From positions 62,001-126,000 of the forward strand of contig CAJJCB010000026.1 in NCBI GenBank assembly GCA_905182565.1: a stretch of DNA of 64,000 bases, in the 5' to 3' direction. Origin of the DNA: Acidimicrobiaceae bacterium (GTDB taxonomy: Bacteria; Actinomycetota; Acidimicrobiia; Acidimicrobiales; Poriferisodalaceae). Positions 43,007-45,371 of the stretch are shown here, one piece after another (positions within the stretch are counted from its first letter, which is position 1; every line of letters begins with the position of its first letter). A model generated the notes under the pieces. The model saw nothing but the letters and a program-made list of their open reading frames with translations, did not search any database and was not told where the DNA came from. Both the position numbers and the translations under genes were made by a program.

Positions 43007-43486
43007 CTAGTCATCGACGTGTGACGAACGAATCATTCGAGTTGGCGTGTAGACCATCACCACTTCGTCTTTCTGATTAAAAACTTCGTTTCGAGTCGTA
43101 ACAATTCCGCGATCCTGAGCAGAAGTTAGTCTTGCCTCAGTGACTTCGGCTATCACCTGAAGAGTATCCCCGACATAAGTCGGTCCTAACACTTTGATTT
43201 CAGCTCCAAGGTAAGCCATACCCGTCCCTGCGATGGCTCCGCCGCTGATAATTAATCCTTCTGCGATAGACATCACCAGACTTCCTGGGACAAGGCGACC
43301 GCTGTATCCAGCTCGTTCGGCTCCGGTTGCATCTAGAAATAACCCCTCTACAAATCCGAACTGAGTGGCATAGACGACTAAGTCGGTTTCGCTAACAGTT
43401 CGGCGAGACGTGCTCCAACGTCTGCCTATAGGTAGCTCATCAAAGGTCCACCCTCGGTGAGGCCGCGGCGGAAGGCTAATAGACAT
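43007..43486 (-). CDS. MaoC-like hydratase
   Basis: A 159-residue hotdog-fold protein of the MaoC/FAS1-like type. VPGSLVMSIAEGLI and YLGAEIKVLGPTYVGDTL match the hotdog-fold helix and the conserved turn, and an earlier VYATQFGFVEGLF segment takes the place of the catalytic Asp/His of R-hydratases (no clear Asp-x4-His is seen). Probably acts on a 2-enoyl-CoA or on a mesaconyl-type substrate. It diverges from the selenoprotein gene at 43598. Confidence 0.88.
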   Translation of the reverse strand: MSISLPPRPHRGWTFDELPIGRRWSTSRRTVSETDLVVYATQFGFVEGLFLDATGAERAGYSGRLVPGSLVMSIAEGLIISGGAIAGTGMAYLGAEIKVLGPTYVGDTLQVIAEVTEARLTSAQDRGIVTTRNEVFNQKDEVVMVYTPTRMIRSSHVDD

Positions 43487-43597: not shown

Positions 43598-44500
43598 GTG
43601 AAAGATCGACGAACTCACCGTTCATATGTTAGTTACATAGACAAGTCGCGAGAGTACTATGGAGCACAAGGGTATCCACAGGCTTATCAATGGTCGTACA
43701 ACTGCGATGTTCCTTTTACTGTTCCGGCTAAACCTATGTCTGAATGTCGCGTCGGTCTGGTAACGACTTCCTTCTTTGACCGGTCTTCTGATCGACATGC
43801 CGTGGCAGGGACGACAGACAAAGAGCCATATGCAGCTCAGTGCGATGATGCGCTTGGAGGCCTATACAACAAGGATCTTTTTTGGGCTAAAGACACCACG
43901 CACACCGAAGATTTGGACAGCTATCTGCCGATTAACAGGCTACGCGAACTCGAGAGCAGAGGCGTTATAGGATCTCTCTCAAAACGTTTTTATGGTGTAC
44001 CTACTGATTACAGTCACCGTCGAACTCAGAAAAAAGACGCACCACAAATTCTAGAGTGGATGATTGAGGATGAGGTTGACGTTGCATTACTTGTTCCCCT
44101 CTGACCTGTGTGTCACCAGACCGTGAGTCTGGTAGCTCGACATCTCGAAGAAGGTGGAATACCTACGGTGATTGCAGGAAGCGCTCGAGACATAGTCGAA
44201 GAAAGCGGCGTTCCTCGTTTTGTATTTACAGATTTCCCTCTCGGTAACCCCACGGGGAAGCCATACGATGTTGAGATGCAGCAGGCAATTGTTTCGACCT
44301 GTCTTGAGACCTTAGAGCGTGCCTGGGAACCCAGGACCACGATACAGACGCCGTTCGTATGGGATGACGGTAGTAATGATTCATGGCGAGCTCAGTTTAT
44401 GCTGGTCGATGAAAGCAACAGAAGGACCCTAGCTCAAGCCGGGGACGACCGACGAAATGCCCAAAAAGCGGCAAAGGTAAAAGGTAAAGGTAGGGAATAA
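43598..44500 (+). CDS. Selenoprotein of the GrdB/PrdB (glycine/sarcosine/betaine/D-proline reductase B) family
   Basis: One frame extends from 43598 (GTG; a TTG at 43532 is possible) through TGA 44102-44104 to TAA at 44498-44500, about 300 residues. Two shorter frames on either side of the TGA together make one family member: residues before it match the N-terminal region (PMSECRVGLVTTS, RLRELESRGVIGSL) and those after it the C-terminal part (ALLVPL-U-PVCHQT, LEEGGIPTVIAGSARDI, DFPLGNPTGKP). The UPVC motif (U169, C172) equals the UxxC redox motif of these reductases; Cys versions read CPVC. A seven-pair hairpin follows the TGA (44115-44133). The family reduces C-N bonds or selenium/sulfur substrates; for this aerobic-looking context the substrate is unknown. 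It is followed after one base by an alpha/beta hydrolase start. The start codon is uncertain. Confidence 0.87.
44102..44133 (+). promoter_or_regulatory. Candidate SECIS after the UGA of the GrdB/PrdB-family gene
   Basis: After UGA (44102-44104) come ten bases, then ACCAGAC (44115-44121), a CGUGA loop (44122-44126) and GUCUGGU (44127-44133): a seven-pair perfect stem with a five-base loop. Bacterial SECIS elements lie directly downstream of the Sec codon with a small apical loop containing GU, as here. It also encodes the conserved QTVSL stretch, so both constraints overlap. Confidence 0.6.
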
Positions 44501-44501
44501 A

Positions 44502-45371
44502 TTGAGTCATGCAGAGAGAGGCGAAAGGTTAGCCGCAGCGCCAAACCCTGACGTATATATTCCGGTTGCTGAAGGTTTAAATATAGCTGCTGATATCTAC
44601 GGAGAAAAAGGTCAGTTAGTTCTCCTGCAGCATGGCGGAGGACAAACACGTCATGCGTGGAAGAGTGCTGGAAGCCAGCTTGCAGCCGCTGGTTATCGAG
44701 CAGTGAGCCTCGATGCTAGAGGACACGGAGACAGTGACTGGGCTCCTGATGGGGATTACTCAAATGACGCGTTGGTGGCAGACCTCGTAGCAGTTGTAGA
44801 GCACTTTGACCAAAAGCCAATTTTGGTAGGGGCATCAATGGGCGGAGGAACCTCATTAGCGGCTGTTGGAGAAGGCGCTGTTGAGGCTAAAGCCTTAGTT
44901 CTAGTCGACACAGCACCTAGAATTGAAGCTAGTGGCGTGCGAAAAATAAGAGATTTTATGGCTCAGGCGCCCGAAGGATTTCAGTCGCTCGAAGATGTCG
45001 CAGCGGCGATCGGAAATTATCAACCTCACCGGGATCGACCAAGAAATTTAGATGGTCTCGCAAAAAACGTTCGGCTCTGGCCAGATGGTCGTTACCGCTG
45101 GCATTGGGATCCGCAATTCATGGCACGAAAACGAGTGCTCGCTGATCGAATTCCTCGACAGGAGGCTGCTGCCAGAAATGTGAAATGCCCATCGCTGCTA
45201 GTGCGAGGTGGGCTGAGCGATGTGCTCTCCGAAGAAGGAGCTCAGGCGTATCTTGATCTGGTACCGCATTCGAAATATACAAATGTTGGACAAGCAGCTC
45301 ACATGGTAGCGGGTGATAGAAACGATATCTTTGTTTCGTCTGTCTTAGACTTTCTGTCTGAACTCGATTGA
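44502..45371 (+). CDS. Alpha/beta hydrolase
   Basis: A 289-residue alpha/beta hydrolase of epoxide-hydrolase/haloperoxidase-like layout: oxyanion HGGGQTRHAWKS, nucleophile elbow GASMGGGTS, acid in the VRGGLSDVLS region and the final His in QAAHMVAGD. It starts with TTG one base after the stop of the selenoprotein gene, and GGGAA lies upstream, so the two genes are co-translated. Confidence 0.92.
   Translation: MSHAERGERLAAAPNPDVYIPVAEGLNIAADIYGEKGQLVLLQHGGGQTRHAWKSAGSQLAAAGYRAVSLDARGHGDSDWAPDGDYSNDALVADLVAVVEHFDQKPILVGASMGGGTSLAAVGEGAVEAKALVLVDTAPRIEASGVRKIRDFMAQAPEGFQSLEDVAAAIGNYQPHRDRPRNLDGLAKNVRLWPDGRYRWHWDPQFMARKRVLADRIPRQEAAARNVKCPSLLVRGGLSDVLSEEGAQAYLDLVPHSKYTNVGQAAHMVAGDRNDIFVSSVLDFLSELD

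Follow-up and report, generated by a model that had tools for sequence, protein, structure and literature searches.

The window, that is, the whole 64-kb stretch of DNA that was analysed, belongs to a genome of 2.65 Mb with a completeness of 95.6%. Under translation table 11, the region of interest is read as two open reading frames, which lie in one continuous frame interrupted by a single TGA (Table 1). When this codon is translated as selenocysteine (Sec), the product comprises 300 residues, with U169 located in the sequence LLVPLUPVCHQTVSL. The start site is approximately the same in the orthologs. The Pfam model PF07355 (GRDB) matched residues 35 to 166 with 23.8 bits (cut-off 22), and the NCBIfam model TIGR04483 (PrdB) covered residues 40 to 252 (E 5e-28). 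With the TIGR04483 match extending across the TGA, both halves are assigned to a single protein. The initial annotation, in which one TGA splits a single member of the GrdB/PrdB superfamily at a UPVC motif, was thereby confirmed with respect to frame continuity and, as PF07355 scored above its gathering cut-off, to superfamily membership.

Table 1. Features of the PrdB-like gene locus (positions within the window)
Feature	Position	Strand	Remarks
PrdB-like gene, predicted selenoprotein	43598..44500	+	GTG start, TAA stop, 300 aa, Sec169
In-frame TGA, predicted Sec codon (U169 of UPVC)	44102..44104	+	Conserved TGA; Cys in distant relatives
Predicted SECIS hairpin	44115..44133	+	7-pair stem, CGUGA loop at 44122-44126; covariation, frozen synonymous sites, covariance model
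Alpha/beta hydrolase (Abhydrolase_1, PF00561)	44502..45371	+	Next gene downstream; sole neighbour retained in both syntenic and rearranged family members
MaoC-like/FAS1-type dehydratase-fold protein	43007..43486	-	Divergently oriented neighbour, retained in most genera of the family; listed as context

The TGA is found at the same place in every close ortholog (61 genomes, comprising the host and 60 relatives). It recurs in independent assemblies, by which an assembly error as its source was ruled out. The nearest named relatives of the protein are from Acidimicrobiia, mostly marine metagenome-assembled genomes (96% to L071). A scan of the GTDB species genomes with the family alignment yielded 379 relatives, the best 80 of which were examined for the Sec position; two patterns, one with Cys at this site and one placed near the N-terminus, kept the scan unbiased toward TGA. 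U was present in all of these 80, which span Acidimicrobiia, Myxococcota, Thermodesulfobacteriota, SAR324, Alpha- and Betaproteobacteria, and Chloroflexota, and a Cys form was not found among them. A shift of the TGA to non-conserved places, which would have spoken against its function, was thus not seen in the best 80 of the 379 relatives. Cys in exact register with U169, as anticipated in the initial annotation, occurs in distant relatives, namely as CPMC (L166) and CPLC (L175, L176), and as CPVC in Roseomonas and CPIC in Haematobacter (L184, L185). The latter two are plasmid-encoded proteins named "glycine/sarcosine/betaine reductase selenoprotein B family protein" by NCBI; they share 34% to 41% identity and the same length with the PrdB-like protein but carry Cys instead of Sec and have different gene neighbours. 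The Roseomonas gene adjoins a convergently oriented selO, which encodes a protein adenylyltransferase (L184:4905-7290). A variant with two in-frame TGA codons, UPIU (UxxU) in place of UPVC, was detected in two Actinomycetota genomes (G137 and G170; L161:1915-1926 and L162:1915-1926). In reviews, UxxU is described for Prx-like proteins and a few other families, and PrdB appears only as UxxC (PMC13188914; PMC9312934).

Ten nucleotides past the TGA starts a hairpin of seven pairs with a five-base loop (ACCAGAC-CGUGA-GUCUGGU), exactly as initially described. Its folding energy is ordinary (z −0.4 to −0.7 versus shuffles) and was rejected as evidence for a SECIS element. The hairpin alone therefore proves nothing, and the case is carried by conservation. 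The codons H173 to L178 (HQTVSL) are synonymously frozen, with a mean excess codon homozygosity of 0.38 versus 0.03 outside this stretch of the gene (55 gene sequences), a level not attained in any of 100,000 permutations. In an alignment of 30 diverse sequences, 94% of the stem cells pair, and nine double-sided compensatory cells are distributed over four of the seven pairs, a value as high as this being reached in none of 500 shuffles. The covariance model built for the element matched exactly three PrdB-like paralogs in the host genome and nothing else at E values up to 1, from which it follows that other selenoprotein genes, including selD, must use a different hairpin sequence. A search of the 64-kb window against Rfam gave no match at the gathering threshold. 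The stem covariation and the frozen codons support the proposed SECIS role, and as far as sequence comparison can tell, the hairpin is a real SECIS element whose RNA is under selection. In most members of one genus of the same family (L038-L046), the CGUGA loop is replaced by GAUCG, with the inner stem unchanged.

The genes selA, selB, selC, and selD, for which a search had been proposed, are all present in the host genome. On contig 22, selA (392 bits) adjoins selB (271 bits; a C-terminal piece is located further on), and the tRNA-Sec with the anticodon TCA is encoded on the same contig. The selD gene (348 bits; L054:3535-4590) itself encodes a selenoprotein (SHGAGUACKL). The absence of this machinery had been named as an argument against recoding; instead, the full set was found. 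All 31 checked Actinomycetota genomes holding a member of the PrdB-like family contain selA. A Cys form with concurrent loss of the Sec machinery was not seen, as the three Cys-bearing Actinomycetota genomes (3/3) also possess selA. The recoding of the TGA can be considered close to certain, and with high confidence codon 169 is predicted to be decoded as Sec, making the gene product a selenoprotein of a PrdB-like (UPVC) family. SelB together with tRNA-Sec is predicted to insert Sec at this UGA on account of the SECIS hairpin behind it, in agreement with genome content, conservation, and covariation. The reading of the TGA as an ordinary stop in a pseudogene, a frame-split gene, or a faulty assembly, which would explain the two open reading frames under table 11, has practically no probability left. 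It is refuted by conservation, with the same TGA in all relatives and both halves retained, and it also conflicts with the SECIS covariation and the complete Sec machinery.

Several lines of evidence separate the protein from the classical reductases. D-proline reductase PrdB of Enterococcus raffinosus and Terrisporobacter is homologous over about 215 residues, has Sec in register, and shares the GIPT and P-G motifs downstream of it. However, the identity is only 25% to 26%, PrdB is encoded beside prdA, and it lacks the N-terminal YIDKSREYY segment of the PrdB-like protein. The UGTCHR motif of annotated prdA-linked PrdB is replaced by UPVCHQT. The score for the equivalog model TIGR04483 (98.2 bits) is well below the curated cut-off of 300, and the same holds for the glycine reductase selenoprotein B model TIGR01917 (45.2 bits versus 602.2). 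In the phylogenetic tree, the protein falls into a clade of 27 rows (support 99/97) apart from real PrdB. The selenoproteins B of glycine, sarcosine, and betaine reductase (GrdB/GrdF/GrdH) match in the C-terminal half (E 1e-10 to 6e-12) but are about 430 residues long and work with GrdA and GrdE, and the PrdB-like protein lies far below the cut-offs of these families. PF09338 (PrdA/GrdE) had no match in the host genome and 27 other family-bearing genomes, anaerobic lineages included, and none in any positive-control genome, though the model does recognise real PrdA; PF04723 (GrdA) likewise matched neither the host genome nor a control genome. Judged by its sequence, the protein is neither a D-proline reductase nor, strictly speaking, a PrdB or GrdB. 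A role differing from that of the clostridial D-proline or glycine reductase had been postulated before, and the low equivalog scores, the UPVCHQT motif, and the separate clade are in line with this.

Nearly every Acidimicrobiia ortholog of the family (24 loci) is immediately followed by the alpha/beta hydrolase gene, also where the surroundings differ, and this link was not seen outside this marine Acidimicrobiia family. Among 113 neighbours at 30 loci, mainly from other phyla, no Pfam family occurred in more than three members as a conserved operon partner. The PrdB-like protein may thus be regarded as stand-alone, with no partner conserved across phyla and the hydrolase link restricted to the marine Acidimicrobiia family. 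Two luciferase-like monooxygenases and a copper amine oxidase, members of families that usually use O2, are encoded in the window, and a gene of the RPE65 (carotenoid oxygenase) family is located elsewhere in the host genome. These predicted enzymes fit an aerobic host, which supports the setting proposed initially. Those in the window also stand against the idea that a true D-proline or glycine/betaine reductase, with this protein as one subunit, serves amino acid reduction in micro-oxic niches. Despite TIGR04483 being the best NCBIfam match and despite the alignment of U169 with Sec of the Enterococcus and Terrisporobacter proteins, this idea is very improbable in view of the bit scores, the deviating motif, clade, and N-terminal segment, and the missing PF09338 matches in 28 genomes and PF04723 match in the host genome (no control genome matched either).

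The supposition that the protein represents an undescribed branch did not hold. In the Sargasso Sea, Sec-containing UxxC PrdB ranked third in abundance among selenoprotein families (42 genes; PMC1088965); it was also among the commonest selenoproteins of the Global Ocean Sampling (GOS) data, with 235 sequences (PMC2398784), and NCBI names the Cys relatives. The marine "PrdB" likewise carries Sec in UxxC, belongs to pfam07355, and is abundant in the surface ocean; in the accessible parts of both reports, it is named D-proline reductase without further function or genomic context (PMC1088965; PMC2398784). Based on motif, family, and habitat rather than on a sequence comparison, and as far as the accessible parts of these reports describe it, the UPVC subfamily is presumably identical with this marine "PrdB". 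"Proline reductase" selenoproteins have also been listed for bacteria without Stickland fermentation, for example Anaeromyxobacter and Geobacter (PMC1794560). The family is therefore known already, and the literature searched contained no report on the function or structure of the PrdB-like UPVC family. Relatives were not found on viral contigs. Since the standard code halves the gene, an abundant selenoprotein of the sea can readily be overlooked or misnamed after an anaerobic enzyme.

In the predicted structure (pLDDT 91.8), U169 is positioned just past a strand (162-166) and before a helix (170-185), a position often occupied by a reactive selenol or thiol. According to the model, it lies in a Rossmann-like alpha/beta core and is paired with Cys172 in UxxC. 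Besides the motif, D105, P111, D161, E184, G187, T190, R207, D212, P214-L215-G216, and G220 are invariant, which suggests that the protein has a pocket for a substrate and is not simply an electron carrier. Fold searches returned only generic Rossmann-like matches (LacI-type, SDR) with a best Z of 8.8 and a best Foldseek E of 0.0055, and a sequence search of solved structures gave no match.

Our best guess, held tentatively, is that the protein acts as a thiol/selenol reductase on a small metabolite; the chemistry is extrapolated from PrdB, a distant homolog (about 25% identity). In such a mechanism, the selenol of U169 would attack an activated carbon-heteroatom bond or another electrophile of the metabolite, leaving a selenenyl-sulfide between U169 and C172, to be reduced by thioredoxin or a comparable thiol donor. 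Catalysis would proceed without the pyruvoyl subunit used by D-proline and glycine reductases. It is conceivable, at a lower level of confidence, that the proteins form an oxygen-tolerant, stand-alone selenoenzyme family that, with no pyruvoyl partner and in nearly all cases with Sec in place of Cys, performs reductive cleavage of the GrdB/PrdB type on a substrate from marine aerobes.

Two other functions were considered. A reductive detoxifying enzyme, whose selenol removes a halogen, a nitro group, a peroxide, or a similar electrophile and whose substrate is shared by the downstream hydrolase, would agree with an autonomous, patchily distributed gene with paralogs and with the retention of the hydrolase gene. 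A study on fluoroacetate reduction in Synergistota reportedly mentions a GrdB-like protein (PMC10838667), which was counted for this explanation as well. It is rather doubtful, however, as the hydrolase link was not seen outside the Acidimicrobiia family and the gene context holds no clue to the substrate. A general thiol-disulfide oxidoreductase or antioxidant protein acting on protein or low-molecular-weight disulfides is unlikely: the searches made revealed no thioredoxin-like match for the predicted fold, and the invariant YID..R..Y, W, RDI, and DFPLG outside the motif resemble a substrate pocket, even though the location of UxxC at the N-terminus of a helix in the model and the lack of a fixed genetic partner would suit such a function. 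The identity of the substrate of the putative reductase would reveal for which kind of selenium chemistry marine bacteria that live with oxygen bear the cost.

Aerobes are said to retain few selenoproteins (PMC13188914). In contrast, the host genome keeps three paralogs of one selenoprotein family. The two further PrdB-like genes each contain a single TGA, and their products share 34% and 31% identity with the protein described here and score 27.2 and 26.2 bits with PF07355. One of them, the third paralog (L003:1438-2580, host contig C26, about 242 kb), encodes 381 amino acids with the motif UPLCTRT and has a C-terminal extension of more than 100 residues without a match in Pfam. In the SECIS element of this paralog, a wholly different stem (GCGUAC/GUACGC) is combined with the same CGUGA loop.
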